DNA of 40,187 bases from Phycisphaerae bacterium (GTDB taxonomy: Bacteria > Planctomycetota > Phycisphaerae > UBA1845), in assembly GCA_030429365.1 (NCBI GenBank), contig JAUIEW010000014.1, forward strand, positions 1 through 40,187. The letters are read 5' to 3'. Positions 11,941-21,009 of the stretch are shown in pieces; position 1 is the first letter of the stretch, and the number at the start of each line of letters is the position of its first letter. The notes below the pieces were generated by a model. The model ran no database searches. It saw only the letters and a list, made by a program, of their open reading frames with translations, and was not told where the DNA came from. The translations under genes and the position numbers were made by a program.

Positions 11941-14292
11941 CTAGAAGACTTTGCTTAGCGGGTCGTTTTCACGCACATCGTTGATCAGTCGCCATGTGCG
12001 TTCCGGGTTCATCGGTAGTTCGCAGGGGGCTTTACCCGTTGCGTCATAGATCGCCGAGAGGATCGCGGGCACTGCGCCGATGAGGGGTGGTTCGCCGACG
12101 CCGTGAGCGCCGAACGGTCCGCCGGGGTCGTCGTGTTCGACGATGATGGCTTCGACTGGTGGGAGGTCTTTGATCGTCGGGATGATGTAATCGGTCAGCC
12201 CGGGGTTCATGATCCGCCCGTCTTTGTAAGTCACCTCTTCCATGAGGGCCATACCGAGCCCCTGCGCCACCCCGCCGACAATCTGCCCTTCGACCGACTG
12301 CGGGTTGACGGCTTTTCCGACATCGTGCGCGGCGATGTGGCGTTCGACTTTCACTTCGCCGGTCTCCATGTTGACGAGCACCTGCGACACGTGCGCGCCG
12401 AAGAGGTACGTGATAAACGCGCGCGGGGATTGGCCGGTCTGCGGAACTTCGGTGATGGTGCGCGGTTTGAATAGCGCTGTGGCTTTGAGGCTGTACCCGC
12501 GCGTCAAACCTTCGGTGCAGATCTGCTGGATGCTGACGCGGTTGTCGGGTTTCGCCGTCTCAAACGCCCAGCCTTGTTGCAGCGTGATTTCGTGTGGGTG
12601 GACTTTGAGTTTGATGCCGGCGATGTCGAGGACTTGCTCGCGCAGTTCGCTGGCGGCCATTCTGACGGCATTGCCCGTGAAATACGTTTGCCTGGTGGCG
12701 CTGGATGAGCCGGATTCGTCGGTGAGTTCGGTGTCCGCAGCTACGATGCGCATGTGCTCCATCGGCAGGCCGAGGTCTTCGCCCGCGATCTGCATCATCG
12801 TGTTGAGCAAACCCTGTCCGACTTCAACGCCGCCCGTGTAAACCGTTGCGGTGCCATCGTCATTCATCTCGACGCGGGCGCGGCTACAATCGGGAAATCC
12901 GTCGCCGTAACCGAGTCCGAAACAGATCGCGCTCATGCCCCAGCCGCGTCGCATGTAATCGGGCAGCTTGTCGTTTCCGGGGTATGGTCGCTCTTTGAAT
13001 TTCGCGATCGCTTTGCTCAGGCAGTGTCCGATGCTGACCGGGTCAACGTGCTGTCCAGTGGTGACGGTGTCGCCGCTTTGGATCAGGTTCTTGCGGCGAA
13101 ACGCTTCGCGATCCATGTTGAGGGCGCGGGCGATGCGGTCCATCATTCCTTCGTACGCGATTGCCATCTGGCACGCGCCGAATCCGCGCATCGCACCGGT
13201 CGGATTGTTGTTCGTGTGAACGCCGTACACGTCGACTTCAACATTGGGCACGCGGTATGGACCCGTCGCATGGCTGGCTGCTTTTCGCATGACCGCGATG
13301 CCGGTGGACGCGTACGCGCCCTCGTCACTGTGCACCACGATGCGGGCAGCCGTCAATGTTCCGTCGGCTTTGGCGCCAAACGTCGATTCGATTTTCAATG
13401 CGTGGCGTTTGTGACGGGCCCGCATCGATTCGGATCGGGTGTAGCGAAGCGCGATGGTCTTGCCCTGATGCTTGAGGGCAGCGAGCCCGAGATAGATTTG
13501 GATGCTGATGTCTTCGCGTCCGCCGAAAGCGCCGCCGGTGACGGGCTGAATGATGCGGATTTGTTCGACGGGCAGACCGAGTGCGAGCGCGATGAGGCGG
13601 CGCTCTTCGTGGACCCACTGCCCGGCTACATAGAGCGTTAACACCTGCCCGTCCCAATGACCCGTCCCGGCTTCGATGTCGAGGAAGGCGTGGTCAACGG
13701 TTTGCGTGAAGAACGTATCGGTGACGACGACGTGCGAGTTGGCCAGCGCGAGTTCGACGTCGCCCTTGCGGATGCGCTTGTCGCCCATCACGTTGCCTTC
13801 GGGGTAGAGCTTGCAAGCGCCGTCGGCGATCGCTTGCTCCATGGTGGCGATGACCGGCAGCGGTTCGTAGCTGACTTCGACGCGGTCGCGGCCTAGTTTC
13901 GCCGCACGTTCGGTCTTAGCCACCACGACGGCGATGGCGTCACCGAGGTAGCGCACCCGTTTTGAAGCGAGGGCTGGGTGGTCGCGGCGAATCAATCCGT
14001 GGATGTTCGTCCCGCCGACATCGGCGTGCGTGTAGACGCCGAGGACGCCCGCGACTTCGAGCGCCTTGGTGGTGTCGATCGCGGTGATATTTGCGTGGGC
14101 GTGTTGGCTTCGGACGACGCTGGCGAACAGTTCGGCAGAGTTGGGGAAAAGGTCGGCGCCGTAGAGTGCGGTCCCGGTGACTTTTTCTTTTCCATCGATG
14201 CGGCGACACGACTTGCCCACGAGATGATCGGGCGGCGCGATGGGCGCGTCCTGCGCTTTGTCGGATTCAGTTGTGGTGACTTGCTGAATCAT
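11941..14292 (-). CDS. Molybdenum-hydroxylase (xanthine dehydrogenase family) large, molybdopterin-binding subunit
   Basis: A 783-residue catalytic subunit of a xanthine-oxidase-family hydroxylase, which hydroxylates a heterocycle or aldehyde with water as oxygen source. An N-terminal hammerhead domain (about 25-150) precedes the molybdopterin-binding domains, with GGAFGGRED (253-261), PTGAMRGFG (364-372) and GVGEPPLIG near the end. In the last, Glu734 matches the conserved catalytic base. The active-site loop reads AMRGFG, as in xanthine/aldehyde-type enzymes, and lacks the Cys-Ser-Phe-Arg loop of carbon-monoxide dehydrogenase. The substrate cannot be assigned. The ATG overlaps the TGA of the iron-sulfur subunit (ATGA), so the two are translationally coupled. 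It is the last gene of the minus-strand train. Confidence 0.92.
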   Translation of the reverse strand: MIQQVTTTESDKAQDAPIAPPDHLVGKSCRRIDGKEKVTGTALYGADLFPNSAELFASVVRSQHAHANITAIDTTKALEVAGVLGVYTHADVGGTNIHGLIRRDHPALASKRVRYLGDAIAVVVAKTERAAKLGRDRVEVSYEPLPVIATMEQAIADGACKLYPEGNVMGDKRIRKGDVELALANSHVVVTDTFFTQTVDHAFLDIEAGTGHWDGQVLTLYVAGQWVHEERRLIALALGLPVEQIRIIQPVTGGAFGGREDISIQIYLGLAALKHQGKTIALRYTRSESMRARHKRHALKIESTFGAKADGTLTAARIVVHSDEGAYASTGIAVMRKAASHATGPYRVPNVEVDVYGVHTNNNPTGAMRGFGACQMAIAYEGMMDRIARALNMDREAFRRKNLIQSGDTVTTGQHVDPVSIGHCLSKAIAKFKERPYPGNDKLPDYMRRGWGMSAICFGLGYGDGFPDCSRARVEMNDDGTATVYTGGVEVGQGLLNTMMQIAGEDLGLPMEHMRIVAADTELTDESGSSSATRQTYFTGNAVRMAASELREQVLDIAGIKLKVHPHEITLQQGWAFETAKPDNRVSIQQICTEGLTRGYSLKATALFKPRTITEVPQTGQSPRAFITYLFGAHVSQVLVNMETGEVKVERHIAAHDVGKAVNPQSVEGQIVGGVAQGLGMALMEEVTYKDGRIMNPGLTDYIIPTIKDLPPVEAIIVEHDDPGGPFGAHGVGEPPLIGAVPAILSAIYDATGKAPCELPMNPERTWRLINDVRENDPLSKVF

Positions 14293-14789
14293 GACGATTG
14301 ACTCTCGCGATGGGCCCGTTTGACGGCTTCGATGATGGAAGCGTATCCCGTGCAGCGACAGATGTTGCCTTCGAGCGCGGTGAGCAGTTCCGTTTCGCTG
14401 ATGTCGGGGCGATCGTTGAGCAGCGCCCGAGCCGACATGATCAATCCCGGTGTGCAGTAACCGCACTGAGCGGCGCCGGTGGCGACGAAGCTGTCCTGAA
14501 TGACGTCGAGTTCCGCGCCCGACGCTAACCCTTCGATCGTGGTGATGCTTCGATTGTTGGCCTGCGCAGCGAGCATGAGGCAACTGTTGATGGTTTCGCC
14601 GTCGACGAGGACCGTGCAACTGCCGCATTCGCCTTCGAGGCACGCGCCCTTGGTGCCGGTCAGACCGAGCACATCGCGGAGGAACTCGAGCAGTGGACTG
14701 TCCACCGGAACGTCGCGCGTGAACGCTTCGCCATTGACCGTGCAGGCGACTTGCGTCATGGGGATTTCCATTGGAGTTGGATCAGGCAT
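14289..14789 (-). CDS. Molybdenum-hydroxylase 2Fe-2S subunit
   Basis: A 166-residue small subunit with both [2Fe-2S] clusters of the family. The plant-ferredoxin-type cluster uses Cys50, Cys55, Cys58 and Cys70 (C-x4-C-x2-C-x11-C). The second, in a helical domain, uses Cys109, Cys112, Cys144 and Cys146 (CGYC and CRC). It carries electrons from the molybdenum centre to FAD. I chose the ATG at 14789 because AAAGGAG lies 7 nt upstream, inside the last codons of the FAD-subunit gene, whose stop the ATG overlaps by 8 nt. Starts at 14771 and 14759 would also leave the clusters intact. The downstream overlap with the large-subunit gene is ATGA. Confidence 0.93.
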   Translation of the reverse strand: MPDPTPMEIPMTQVACTVNGEAFTRDVPVDSPLLEFLRDVLGLTGTKGACLEGECGSCTVLVDGETINSCLMLAAQANNRSITTIEGLASGAELDVIQDSFVATGAAQCGYCTPGLIMSARALLNDRPDISETELLTALEGNICRCTGYASIIEAVKRAHRESQSS

Positions 14790-15615
14790 CGGCGTCTCCT
14801 TTGGGATTGTCCTCCATCAGTTGCGTCAGCAGGCGCTTGGTCAGTGTCGAGCACATCGCCCGGCGATAGGCGGCTGACCCGCGTTGATCGTCGATCGGGC
14901 TGACTTCCTGCGCGACGAGGTTGGCCACATCGTCGATCAATTCGGCTGAAAGCGTTTCACCATTGAGTAGCGCCGAAGCTTTCGGCGCTGTTCTTGGAAT
15001 CGGACCGACGCATCCGAAAGCGAGTTGGGTTTTCTTGTCTTCGTTTTGCGACACGGCGCAACAGACGAGGCTGATGTTGACGGCTCCCCGCTTGCCGATC
15101 TTGTACCAGCGCGATCGCGGGTTGTAAGGGATGCGGACGGCTTGTATGAGTTCGTCGTCGGCTAGGGCGGTCTTGCGATAGTCGATGAAGTAGTCGACGA
15201 GCGGTATCCAGCGCTGCCCGCGATCCTTGCTACTTAGCTGTACGTCTGCACCGAGGGCCAGCAGCGCCACGCAGCCATCACCGGCTGGCGATGCGGTGGC
15301 GATGTTTCCGCCGATCGTGCCCATGTTGCGGATGGCCGGTCCGCCGACGGAAAGCGATGCTTCTTTCAGGGTGCGAACGTGCAGCTTGCCGAGTTGGGCG
15401 AAGGTCACGCCGGCGCCCAGAATCAGATGGCCATTGTCGCGATCGATCTTGCGGATGGCGTTGATGCCCGAGAGGTCGAGAAAGCACGTCGGCTTGATCG
15501 CGCCGTGATTCATCGCGACCACGACATCGGTGCCGCCGTTGATGACGGTGGCGTCAGCGCCCAACTCGCTGCGGAGTTCGAGGGCTTGTTTGAATGTCAT
15601 CGGTTGATGAAACAT
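14782..15615 (-). CDS. Molybdenum-hydroxylase FAD-binding subunit
   Basis: A 277-residue medium subunit (CoxM/XdhB type) that takes electrons from the 2Fe-2S subunit to FAD and on to an acceptor. The two FAD pyrophosphate-binding motifs are present: NGGTD (26-30) and TIGGN (100-104), the second within NMGTIGGNIATASPAGD. The length is normal for the family. The order in the operon is FAD, 2Fe-2S, molybdenum subunit, with overlapping ends, so one complex is made. The distance from the upstream zinc-ribbon gene is 87 bp. No accessory genes for molybdenum cofactor sulfuration (XdhC-like) are in the window. Confidence 0.92.
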   Translation of the reverse strand: MFHQPMTFKQALELRSELGADATVINGGTDVVVAMNHGAIKPTCFLDLSGINAIRKIDRDNGHLILGAGVTFAQLGKLHVRTLKEASLSVGGPAIRNMGTIGGNIATASPAGDGCVALLALGADVQLSSKDRGQRWIPLVDYFIDYRKTALADDELIQAVRIPYNPRSRWYKIGKRGAVNISLVCCAVSQNEDKKTQLAFGCVGPIPRTAPKASALLNGETLSAELIDDVANLVAQEVSPIDDQRGSAAYRRAMCSTLTKRLLTQLMEDNPKGDADA

Positions 15616-15702: not shown

Positions 15703-16584
15703 TTAGGGTTGCGATGGCTCACCCGGTTCAGCGCCCGCATCGTCAGCACCTTCGTCAGTCGGCTCGCCAGTTGCATCATCCGTTTGGCTCGTTGCAACCA
15801 CCGGCGATTCTTTGTTTTGATCGTCTTGCGTCGTCTGCACGCTCGTCGTAGCCGCTGGTTTCGCCGGTGTACCGCCGCCGCGCAGTTGAATCACCAGAAG
15901 CAGGATCGTGGTGGCCAGCAGAATAAAAAAGCCCGCGATCATCCACGCCGGTATGCGCTGCTGCGGCGGTGGGGCTGGCGTCGGTCGATCGCTGCCCGCC
16001 GACTTGATCGCGCTGCTGAGCAGTTCAAGTTCGGAGGATGTCTGCCGCACCGGTGCGGATTCGAGAATCTCTCCAGGCGGCCTGTCGAGGTTGACTGCGC
16101 AGTGGTGACAATATGTGTCACTTTCGGTGGCGGAACCCTGGCAGCTCCAACACATCCCGACATACTTGCATAGTTCAGGGGTCTGCGCGGCAAAGCGCCA
16201 TTGATGATCCGTGTAAGGGCCGCGGACGATCGTCGTCGCTGTCACAATGCCACGTCGCGCCTGGCGAATCAGTCGTTCCATATTTACGCCAGGGAAGGGC
16301 CGCACGTGCTCCAACACGTACCACGGGCCGCTGTGCTGCTGCATGCGGATGAGCATTTCGACCGACAGGTCCTGGTTGCAGTAGCGGCAGGTGTTGTCGG
16401 TGATGCGCACCAGTTCACCGCACGACACGCACGGTTTGGAATCGCCATGCCAGGCGCGCTGCCCCAGCGGGCTCATCGGTCCAAGTCCGATCTTTGCAGC
16501 CCGCTCGATGGCGCTGAGTCCATCGCCAAGCGGATGCCCCACGGGTCGCTGGGCGTTGGTCGGATTGGTGGTGGGGTCGGCCAT
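15703..16584 (-). CDS. Zinc-ribbon membrane protein, function unknown
   Basis: A 293-residue protein that I cannot assign to a named family. It has two CxxC...CxxC zinc ribbons: Cys52/55/66/69 and Cys145/148/159/162. Between them lies a segment of about 60 residues (GPWYVLEHVRPFPGVNMERL...) resembling a GYF-like protein-binding domain: a WYV strand, a helix with two leucines, and W-R-F-A near its end. A Pro-rich linker leads to one membrane helix (about 213-234) and a long acidic, Thr/Glu/Asp-rich tail. A cytoplasmic zinc/GYF head anchored to the membrane is the likely topology. It sits between the molybdenum-hydroxylase genes and the TPR-YggX-like gene, all on one strand. Confidence 0.7.
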   Translation of the reverse strand: MADPTTNPTNAQRPVGHPLGDGLSAIERAAKIGLGPMSPLGQRAWHGDSKPCVSCGELVRITDNTCRYCNQDLSVEMLIRMQQHSGPWYVLEHVRPFPGVNMERLIRQARRGIVTATTIVRGPYTDHQWRFAAQTPELCKYVGMCWSCQGSATESDTYCHHCAVNLDRPPGEILESAPVRQTSSELELLSSAIKSAGSDRPTPAPPPQQRIPAWMIAGFFILLATTILLLVIQLRGGGTPAKPAATTSVQTTQDDQNKESPVVATSQTDDATGEPTDEGADDAGAEPGEPSQP

Positions 16585-16660: not shown

Positions 16661-17257
16661 TTAGTCCATGATTTGCAGGAATTCTTTCATGTGTTCGTCG
16701 AAGGCTTTTTGTGATCGGGCGTCGGCGAGTTGGAGTCCCATCTCGTTGATCACTTTCGTCCCCATGCCGATCCACTCGCGCCAGCACGACTGGCACACAT
16801 GGTTCCAGACCTTTTCTCCCAGGTCGCCTTTGAAGGGTCGCTCGGGCATCTTCGCGGACGGACGCCCGCACCGGGAGCAGAAAAAGTCTGCGCCGTCTGC
16901 AGCTTTGGCGACGTCAGCGGCATTGGTCTTGGCTTCGGGAACGGTTCCGCCGAGTTCGGTGATGAGTTTGCCCATGGCGTCGCGGGGCATGAGGTCGCCT
17001 TTTTCGTCGGCGACTTCGAAACCGCGGGTCAGGGTTTGCACGGCTTGCTCGTCTTGACCGAGCTGCTTCTGCGCTTCACCAAGCAGGTGATAGGCCTTGG
17101 AGAACGATGGATTCAATTCAAGCGTTCGTTGCAGGGGGGCGATGGCATCCGCGAAGCAGTTCTCGTCCAGGTAGGCCTTCCCCAGACTGAAATGACCCAT
17201 CTCGTTTTGCGGGTCGGCTTCTGCCATTTTCTTGAATTGTTCGATGCGTTCGTTCAT
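16661..17257 (-). CDS. TPR protein with a C-terminal YggX-like (Fe(II)-trafficking) domain
   Basis: A 198-residue cytoplasmic protein. Residues 1-85 form two or three TPR units (ALGKAYLDENCFADAIAPL type, then KAYHLLGEAQKQLG). The C-terminal part (about 125-198) has two CxxC pairs (Cys127/130 and Cys155/158) and a pattern close to YggX: G-D-L-G-E-K-V, then W, then KVINEMGLQL, then a helix ending EFLQI. YggX protects Fe-S clusters from oxidants. The Cys pairs are an addition to the classical YggX fold and could bind zinc or iron. The ATG at 17257 has GAGGAA upstream; farther codons in frame are not protein-like. Its place between a B12 enzyme and an Fe-S/molybdenum enzyme fits a protective role, by inference. 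Confidence 0.7.
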   Translation of the reverse strand: MNERIEQFKKMAEADPQNEMGHFSLGKAYLDENCFADAIAPLQRTLELNPSFSKAYHLLGEAQKQLGQDEQAVQTLTRGFEVADEKGDLMPRDAMGKLITELGGTVPEAKTNAADVAKAADGADFFCSRCGRPSAKMPERPFKGDLGEKVWNHVCQSCWREWIGMGTKVINEMGLQLADARSQKAFDEHMKEFLQIMD

Positions 17258-17422
17258 GCGCTGATTCCTCGATGTTTGGGCGCGAATATTGGCCAATCCC
17301 GTCGCGCGGGCAAAGCGCAGTATCTTAGCACCCAAGCGCCCAGTCTCCAAGCAACGGAGTCCAACTGGCCTGCGTGCATGCGCGTTCGGTGATACCGTAA
17401 AAAGGACAGTATTTGAGGCTCG

Positions 17423-18523
17423 CTAAGCCAAAATGAGATCGGCTGCGGCTTCGATGCCTTCATTGCGGACGGTGCTGACGCGGCAAATCGGACGATCGGC
17501 ACCGACGGCGCTTTTGAGCTGGCCTTCGGTGGCGTCGGCGCCGGGCAGATCGCACTTGTTGATGATGAACATGTCGGCGATTTCCATGATGCCGGCTTTT
17601 GAAAACTGCACGCTGTCACCCGATTCGGGCATGAGAACGAGCAGCGTTTTGTCGACGACGTCGCGGATGGCCACATCGGACTGACCGGCTCCTACCGATT
17701 CGACGAGGATGTAGTCGAAGCCGTATCCATTCAGCGCGCGAATCACATCTGCACAGTGCGGGCCCAATCCACCGTATTCCTTGCCGCTTGAAAGGGAGCG
17801 GATAAAGAAATTGTCGCCAGGCTCGCCCCACATCATGCGCAGTCGATCGCCCAACAGCGCGCCGCCATGGACGGGGCTCGATGGATCAACCGCGACCACC
17901 GCGACTTTGAAACCCTTCTCGCACATGGCCTTTCCGAGCTTGCCGATCAACGAACTCTTACCGACGCCGGGAGCGCCGGTGATGCCGAAGACCTTGGCTG
18001 ACCCGGCTGGCGGGGTCCACTTGCCATCGACCTGGTCGCGCTGAATGTACGTGATCAGTTGGCCCAGCGCCGCGTTGTTTTTGCTTTCGTATCCGGCGAT
18101 CGCTTCAGACAGCGACAGGCGTTTGCGGTCAGCCGCTAATGTTTTGAACTTTTCAACGATGCCTTCGACGGAAGCGCCAGGGTTGAAGACGGCTGCACAT
18201 CCCATCTCGTAGAGAAGATGGTGTTCGTCTTCGGGGACGATGCCGCCGAGAACAACGGGCACGTTTTCGATGCCGAGTTCCTTGCGGTGTCGAAGCACTT
18301 CGGGCATGACCGTGAGATGGGCAGCCGACAACAGGCTCACACCGACGACGTCGATGTCTTCCTGCATCGCGGCGAGCATGGTGCTTTGTGCGGTTTGCCA
18401 GAGGCCCGTGTAGATCACATCAAAGCCGGCATCGCGAAATGATCTTGCGAGGACTTTGACGCCGCGATCGTGTCCGTCGAGTCCGATTTTTGCGAGCAGT
18501 ATTCGAATTGGGTGATCGGTCAT
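17423..18523 (-). CDS. Fused B12-binding domain and MeaB-type GTPase
   Basis: A 366-residue fusion. Residues 5-130 form the cobalamin-binding domain of acyl-CoA mutases, with the base-off/His-on motif D16-G-H18-D-R-G21 and GGIVPEDE later. Residues about 135-366 form a MeaB/ArgK G3E GTPase: Walker A GAPGVGKSS (183-191), VDPSSP (212-217), ESVGAGQSD (275-283, usually ETVGVGQSE) and NKCD (322-325) for guanine. MeaB gates cofactor loading and protects the mutase. IcmF carries these two domains in this order, followed by the mutase barrel. Here the barrel is a separate gene just upstream. The chain stops after the G domain and lacks the C-terminal dimerisation arm of stand-alone MeaB. It presumably forms the small subunit plus chaperone of the mutase. 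Confidence 0.9.
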   Translation of the reverse strand: MTDHPIRILLAKIGLDGHDRGVKVLARSFRDAGFDVIYTGLWQTAQSTMLAAMQEDIDVVGVSLLSAAHLTVMPEVLRHRKELGIENVPVVLGGIVPEDEHHLLYEMGCAAVFNPGASVEGIVEKFKTLAADRKRLSLSEAIAGYESKNNAALGQLITYIQRDQVDGKWTPPAGSAKVFGITGAPGVGKSSLIGKLGKAMCEKGFKVAVVAVDPSSPVHGGALLGDRLRMMWGEPGDNFFIRSLSSGKEYGGLGPHCADVIRALNGYGFDYILVESVGAGQSDVAIRDVVDKTLLVLMPESGDSVQFSKAGIMEIADMFIINKCDLPGADATEGQLKSAVGADRPICRVSTVRNEGIEAAADLILA

Positions 18524-18655: not shown

Positions 18656-20254
<1,599 letters not shown>

Positions 20255-20259
20255 CCTGC

Positions 20260-21009
20260 TTACTCCATCCAGTTCGTGGAACGCCGTTCGAGAAAAGCGC
20301 TGATGCCTTCCTTCGATTCGGCATGGTCGAAGCAAGCCGCAAAGGCCCGCGTTTCGTCGCCTGTTTTGATGGCCCGCTTGATCTGGCTGATCGCATGCGG
20401 GCCACCGCGCCGACAACGGCGCATGAGCTCTTCGATTTTCGTATCGAGGTCGCCTTCGTCGCTGGCGATGATGTCAACCAGGCCGGATTGATGCGCTTCG
20501 GCTCCCTCGATCGCGTCGGCGGAGAACATCAGGCGCTTGGCTTGGTGCACGCCGACGCGGGCGCTGAGTCGTTGAATGCCTTTCCATCCCGGCACCAATC
20601 CGAGCGATGTTTCGGGCAGGCCCAGTTTCGCCGAACCGACCGCGGCTAAAAAGTCGCAGGCCATCGCCACTTCCAACCCGCCCCCGAGGGCTGCACCGTG
20701 CAATCGAGCGATCGTGATGCAGGGCAAATCGGCGATGGCGTCGAACGCTTTGTTGCCGCGATTGGAAAGTTCTGCGGCGCCGGCTGCATCGAGGTTGGAA
20801 AGCTCCTTGATGTTTGCGCCGGCGACGAACACTTTGCCTTCCGCGCCGAGGATGAAGTAGCGCACGTTCGGCGCGGACTTCACTTCATGCGCCACTTCGG
20901 CGATACGATCGATGACGCTGCTGCTTAGTACGTTTAAGCCGCCGTCGGTTTTGAACGTCGCCTCAGCCACGTCTTTGTTGATGGTTAGATCGAGTGTCGT
21001 TTCGCTCAT
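20260..21009 (-). CDS. Enoyl-CoA hydratase (crotonase family)
   Basis: A 249-residue crotonase-fold enzyme. Both catalytic glutamates are present: Glu113 in ALGGGLEVA and Glu133 in LPETSLG, 20 residues apart as in rat crotonase (144/164). The oxyanion-hole strand AGANIKEL and the C-terminal EGISAFLERR segment are normal. It would add water to crotonyl-CoA or a similar enoyl-CoA. It lies 9 nt after the hydroxyacyl-CoA dehydrogenase gene and 5 nt before the mutase gene, so it is clearly in the same operon. Other crotonase activities cannot be excluded, but two Glu residues and the neighbours favour hydratase. Confidence 0.9.
   Translation of the reverse strand: MSETTLDLTINKDVAEATFKTDGGLNVLSSSVIDRIAEVAHEVKSAPNVRYFILGAEGKVFVAGANIKELSNLDAAGAAELSNRGNKAFDAIADLPCITIARLHGAALGGGLEVAMACDFLAAVGSAKLGLPETSLGLVPGWKGIQRLSARVGVHQAKRLMFSADAIEGAEAHQSGLVDIIASDEGDLDTKIEELMRRCRRGGPHAISQIKRAIKTGDETRAFAACFDHAESKEGISAFLERRSTNWME

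Follow-up and report, generated by a model that had tools for sequence, protein, structure and literature searches.

YggX (Pfam family PF04362, Iron_traffic) has been linked to the protection of iron-sulphur (Fe-S) clusters and to the binding of Fe(II) (PMC1360075; PMC3989283). The family is marked by a cysteine near the domain N-terminus, to which a reference title ("Cys-7 is essential", for Salmonella YggX) and a passage ("critical Cys") in PMC11078426 draw attention. Kaur and Subramanian (2016) count YggX among the treble clefs recognised from structure, the solved member being without zinc (PMC4999995). The treble clef is described there as a structural zinc-binding fold in which two ligands come from a knuckle with the consensus CPXCG and two from the N-terminal region of a helix. 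Here we describe a planctomycete relative, encoded on a 40,187-nucleotide stretch of DNA from a Phycisphaerae bacterium (assembly GCA_030429365.1, contig JAUIEW010000014.1, positions 1 to 40,187; hereafter the window), in which a YggX domain is joined to N-terminal tetratricopeptide repeats (TPRs) and carries four cysteines that probably form a metal site.

The sequence core, the predicted fold and the N-terminal cysteine of this protein are those of YggX (PF04362; 1yhd, 1xs8, 1t07, 2mzy), whereas its TPRs, three further cysteines and length (198 amino acids, against about 90 residues for the stand-alone protein) set it apart. The fusion is real and well conserved. Among the titles and abstract starts of the PubMed Central matches listed, there was neither a TPR-YggX fusion nor a YggX gene in a SUF operon, a scope that lies outside supplements (including Supplementary File 2 of PMC4999995, which may name ligand-bearing homologues) and subscription journals.

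Domain make-up and predicted fold

The gene and its parts lie in the window as follows.

16661..17257, minus strand: TPR-YggX fusion protein, 198 amino acids (open reading frame list; Pfam TPR models and PF04362)
17266..17270, minus strand: GAGGA ribosome-binding-like site, 8 nt upstream of the ATG (read in the sequence)
16955..17251, minus strand: N-terminal TPR-like part, residues 3-101, six helices making three pairs (Pfam, AlphaFold2 model)
16673..16882, minus strand: YggX (Iron_traffic) domain, residues 126-195 (PF04362; predicted fold like 1yhd, 1t07, 1xs8 and 2mzy)
16868..16879, minus strand: first cysteine pair, Cys127 and Cys130, flanked by two short strands (sequence, alignment, model)
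16784..16795, minus strand: second cysteine pair, Cys155 and Cys158, at the N-terminal start of helix 156-173 (sequence, model)

An earlier reading of the same DNA, made from the letters alone (the sequence-only reading), had proposed that TPRs precede a YggX-like domain with two extra CxxC pairs. Pfam bears out the order of the domains, with both kinds of model above cut-off: five TPR models at residues 21-79 (among them TPR_17 at 37.2 bits versus 24.4 and TPR_1 at 32.7 versus 27.8) and PF04362 at residues 126-195 (57.5 bits versus a cut-off of 27, E 1.1e-15). This was the only PF04362 match found in the source genome, and near-full-length matches to the fusion protein were present in 13 of 14 loci compared. 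A further cysteine, Cys34, lies within the TPR part.

The whole protein, modelled with AlphaFold2 using 14 related proteins, reached a mean pLDDT of 88.2, with TPR-part helices at residues 3-14, 19-31, 35-48, 53-65, 69-86 and 89-101 and a poorly placed linker at residues 117-121. Foldseek with this model returned TPR proteins, and no YggX, among the 50 matches listed; the YggX domain was therefore folded alone (pLDDT 88.6). The best matches of the isolated domain in the PDB were the YggX entries 1t07, 2mzy, 1yhd and 1xs8, followed by a weak tail (E > 2, probability ≤0.14) in which LIM, GATA, RING and FYVE domains stood alongside unrelated proteins. With VIA-align, only these four YggX chains among the 56 aligned had Z ≥8 (1yhd 12.2, 1t07 10.9, 1xs8 9.1, 2mzy 8.0; next-best chain 2.6), and the model superposed on 1yhd with a root-mean-square deviation of 2.6 across 79 residues. 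A fold unrelated to YggX, which would have spoken against the sequence-only reading, was thus not obtained: all four solved YggX structures match the predicted domain fold.

A predicted four-cysteine site

Cys127 aligns with the cysteine of 2mzy, 1xs8 and 1yhd (the alignment to 1t07 begins past that position) and corresponds to the family cysteine that is Cys-7 in Salmonella YggX. The two CxxC pairs of the sequence-only reading stand where it had placed them (Cys127, 130, 155 and 158), but as Cys127 is the counterpart of a cysteine already in YggX, the extra cysteines number three (Cys130, Cys155 and Cys158) rather than four.

According to DSSP assignments of the model, the first motif (CSRCG) lies between two strands, in the turn of a hairpin, and the second (CQSC) at a helix start. 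By layout, the quartet would fit the ligand arrangement of a treble clef, with a knuckle pair and a helix-start pair. The likeness to treble-clef zinc fingers thus extends to a CXXCG knuckle flanked by strands and a helix that begins with a CXXC; the differences are an extra helix (145-153) between the knuckle and the ligand helix, and that zinc binding here is predicted. The possible metal site of the sequence-only reading can accordingly be specified as a probable Cys4 site, on the basis of the modelled layout and of the joint retention described below.

Distribution of the fusion and of its cysteines

All genomes surveyed came from one phylum. The census comprised 140 PF04362 domains from 139 genomes (118 loci, from 119, plus 22 added), near-copies such as G219 and G333 included; one locus (L055 in G104, 22.3 bits, under the Pfam cut-off) was excluded from the cysteine census and another (L069, TPR part only) from the alignments. 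Domains were called TPR-fused when they scored more than 30 bits with a custom N-terminal profile. PF04362 was found in 35 of 40 near-relative genomes and in 93 of the 114 genomes of the order (source genome included in both). Across the phylum it was sparser, with 26 of 294 genomes drawn (source included; 25 above cut-off) and, in a second draw that was larger and overlapped the first, 47 of 392 (46 above cut-off); the class of G123 gave 3 of 12 genomes (2 above cut-off) and the class of G156 gave 10 of 29. The fusion, which the sequence-only reading had suggested surveying in planctomycetes and myxobacteria, proved widespread: 107 of the 140 domains were TPR-fused, as were 66 of the 94 within the order.

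All four cysteines were present in 79 of the 140 domains, more than chance would give, 75 of them with TPRs and 4 with no TPR seen (one of the latter, L026, begins at a contig edge). Domains with only the first cysteine numbered 28 without and 22 with TPRs, and nine domains, all TPR-fused, had none of the four. The three extra cysteines were all present or all absent in 138/140 domains, the exceptions being one with the first pair only and no TPR seen (G031) and one with a single cysteine of each pair and a TPR part (G116). In these alignments, then, the cysteine quartet behaves as one unit. The core of the domain was kept: the second W of WxxW, the N-E and the L each round to 1.00 across all 140 domains, fused and stand-alone, and the V and I of the KVINE helix are kept in most. 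The nine domains that lack even Cys127 still hold both tryptophans and the KVINE-L helix.

Several lineages merit separate mention. In family f4 of the order, stand-alone one-cysteine YggX accounted for 25 of 25 domains, and its members (L004, L005, L017, L024 and others) carry, after the cysteine and ahead of the first helix, an insert about a dozen residues long. One of the 25, in G334, is probably foreign DNA or contamination: this second PF04362 match of its genome (G334:C65:1716-1979, L129) scored 145 bits, when the next best in the order scored 80.8, and lies on a separate contig. Family f2 shows three states, namely fused four-cysteine, fused one-cysteine and apparently stand-alone first-pair-only (L002/G031, L003/G024, L006/G035). 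Among plasmid records, 142 matched the whole protein (20 of the 142 listed) and 19 matched the domain, none above 60% identity; the annotated ones among the 19 read as ordinary YggX.

Stand-alone relatives in a SUF gene run

Family f71 was sampled with two genomes, from two genera (G123 and G141), and in each of them a stand-alone four-cysteine YggX directly follows sufU, at the end of a run of sufC, a sufD-like gene, sufS and sufU.

L107:7900-12170, minus strand: SUF run and four-cysteine YggX (TIGRFAM/Pfam matches, identity stretches)
L108:7950-12236, minus strand: SUF run and four-cysteine YggX (TIGRFAM/Pfam matches, identity stretches)

The sufC gene was identified by TIGR01978 at 337 bits in L108 and in L107 by an ABC match together with a stretch of 83% identity, and sufS by TIGR01979 at 547 bits in L107 and a 67% identical stretch in L108. 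The SufBD-core protein of the two loci is nearest to sufD, scoring 220.8 and 220.9 bits, just below the cut-off of 222. For sufU, TIGR01994 gave 156.8 bits versus 92.5 in L108, and L107 had a NifU_N match. As read from the sequence, the likely YggX ATG lies one base past the sufU stop in L108 and 20 bases past the stop of the sufU frame in L107. The sufU of L107 looks split by an insertion or deletion. Neither f71 genome is complete (77 and 79%).

In contrast to these relatives, the fusion gene of the window is not near SUF genes: sufC, sufD, sufS and sufU queries had no match in the window, and a NifU_N match of the source genome lies on a different contig (C121). Two further hits, one SufS-like (26% identity, L079) and one to the ABC query (28%, L064), were left uncounted in the SUF census. 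The f71 run gives independent support for the iron link and is a better clue than the neighbours of the window's own gene.

Phylogenetic trees

The four cysteine columns were omitted from both the domain tree and the fused-protein tree. The fewest changes of the four-cysteine state were one in the fused-protein tree (85 of the 107 fused rows) and three in the domain tree, which was built from 69 columns and 118 of the 140 rows. The latter placed all fused and all four-cysteine proteins, with one stand-alone two-cysteine row, in a group of 90 rows, split from 28 stand-alone YggX rows with a support of 98 (SH-aLRT). If the root lay there, the first to branch would be the f71 pair with its SUF link, followed by fused proteins of f64, f77 and f83, all four-cysteine (supports 86 to 91, under the starred level), and the site would have been lost once or twice inside the 90-row group. 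Domain trees, with their 69 columns and their long-branch warnings, are weak; as both trees are unrooted, loss and gain of the site cannot be told apart from them.

Genomic neighbourhood of the fused gene

The genes around the fusion gene in the window are the following (context).

17423..18523, minus strand: B12-binding domain and MeaB GTPase in one chain (Pfam; genus-only neighbour)
18656..20416, minus strand: methylmalonyl-CoA mutase catalytic chain (Pfam; genus-only neighbour)
15703..16584, minus strand: protein with a hydrophobic stretch and two cysteine clusters like those of zinc ribbons (ribbon matches under the Pfam cut-offs)
11941..15615, minus strand: xanthine-dehydrogenase-type flavin (FAD) and molybdenum (Mo) subunits, with a subunit between them that we take, from sequence appearance, to be of 2Fe-2S type (Pfam, NCBIfam; genus-only)

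The B12-MeaB and xanthine-dehydrogenase-type genes adjoin the fusion gene in all five genomes of the genus (the window and four others), and the mutase does so in four of the five, the contig of the remaining one (G003) ending before it. None of these genes was found at any of the 55 loci outside the genus. Of these loci, 47 match the query protein and most of the others hold stand-alone YggX; weak superfamily matches (ECH at 27% in L101, g27400 at 22% in L118) were not counted, and several contigs are short. The Fe-S and B12 enzymes to which the sequence-only reading had pointed are therefore present beside the gene and conserved inside the genus only, and its proposal of a dedicated protector of such enzymes finds no support in them. 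On the same count, the idea that the fusion is tied specifically to the B12 mutase and the xanthine-dehydrogenase-like genes was rejected as a general reading. The zinc-ribbon-like protein recurred in the fetched flank of 4 of the 55 loci (L076, L085, L086, L092).

No conserved operon was found for the fused form, the largest neighbour clusters covering 9, 7 and 6 of 51 loci; from sequence appearance these are presumably an FHA-domain protein, urocanase and phosphoglycerate mutase. A Pfam scan of 20 chosen neighbour ORFs (open reading frames) from 15 loci (four with stand-alone f4 and two with f71 YggX) yielded a radical-SAM/SPASM protein in L094, NifU_N and class-V aminotransferase in the f71 loci, and no other Fe-S or iron family among those 20.

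The methylmalonyl-CoA mutase is itself oddly split, with a catalytic chain that has no B12-domain match and a B12 domain fused separately to a MeaB-type GTPase, and resembles IcmF cut in two. One locus, L057 (JANQQE010000021.1), is syntenic with the window (92% identity for B12-MeaB, 90% for the mutase), and its Alphaproteobacteria label looks wrong.

Proposed function and alternatives

We favour, at roughly even odds (about 0.5), a reading in which the fusion protein is a cytosolic adaptor with a structural zinc site in its TPR-tethered YggX domain, serving Fe-S or labile-iron upkeep. The YggX domain would be a treble clef in which Cys127, Cys130, Cys155 and Cys158 jointly bind a single metal ion, which is most likely Zn(II) in a structural role, and the N-terminal TPRs would dock this domain onto a partner protein. 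A part in maintaining Fe-S clusters or labile iron, like that attributed to canonical YggX, is suggested by the roles of the canonical protein and by the f71 SUF run. It would be borne by the conserved W-(x2)-W and K-V-I-N-E-x2-L helix and not by the cysteines: the nine domains that keep the tryptophan pair and this helix without the quartet suggest that the helix is probably the working surface.

Several observations weigh against this reading. The AlphaFold2 model places no metal, so that the ion is one we infer. Of the 107 fused domains, 32 lack one or more of the three extra cysteines, which indicates that the metal would be dispensable in some lineages. A SUF neighbourhood surrounds no fused copy, the two f71 loci being the only such cases among 77 context loci and the window. 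The NCBIfam YggX equivalog PRK05408 scores 61 for the fusion protein, below its cut-off of 74; the protein is thus not filed as YggX itself and canonical YggX function, for which the tested biochemistry comes from proteobacterial proteins, may not carry over.

The quartet might instead bind iron, as a rubredoxin-like site or as labile Fe(II), and the protein would then supply the SUF scaffold with iron, as a donor or carrier. The place of the four-cysteine relative behind sufU in both sampled f71 genomes suits this idea, yet the predicted treble-clef layout, with one pair at the helix start, is that of a fold described as structural zinc-binding (PMC4999995), and the 32 fused copies without the full set count against it too. 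Since the extra cysteines are absent together from other lineages while the rest of the domain stays, and given the layout, the metal carrier entertained by the sequence-only reading is judged less likely than a structural zinc site, and iron as the bound metal is on the whole unlikely. If the cysteines served as a thiol redox switch, the CXXC pairs would form disulfides or release zinc under oxidative stress, as in Hsp33, and the TPR part would bind or free its partner. Redox-active zinc ligands are described for C1B and Hsp33 (PMC4999995), and in E. coli the SoxRS system controls canonical YggX (PMC1360075); the fused copies with none of the four cysteines nevertheless mean that such a switch cannot be the general function, and we rate it a little below the iron carrier. 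Equally improbable is that the protein is simply a TPR scaffold with some unrelated function, which has taken over the YggX domain as a small, stable building block that plays no iron role. The lack of a widely shared gene partner near the fused copies and the equivalog score below cut-off would fit such a scaffold, but the YggX core kept across the 140 domains and the SUF run of f71 do not.

Implications for the YggX family

A more tentative suggestion concerns origins, and we give it clearly less weight than the proposed function. YggX may descend from a zinc-binding treble-clef accessory factor of the SUF Fe-S pathway. The planctomycete four-cysteine proteins would then keep the site, the essential proteobacterial cysteine would be a zinc ligand left over from it, and the TPR-fused form would be a tethered adaptor for SUF or iron. 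That all YggX proteins go back to a form with this site is a guess: one phylum was sampled, the trees are short and have no root, and long-branch warnings attach to the domain tree. If true, an origin as a zinc ligand would explain the single conserved cysteine of canonical YggX.

As we read it, the action of canonical YggX is still unsettled, although the family is named for Fe(II) trafficking. An intact ligand set and a relative placed behind sufU raise two questions, namely whether the domain binds zinc and whether it acts on the SUF machinery. The four-cysteine version may show where the usual metal-poor YggX came from and which machinery it serves.
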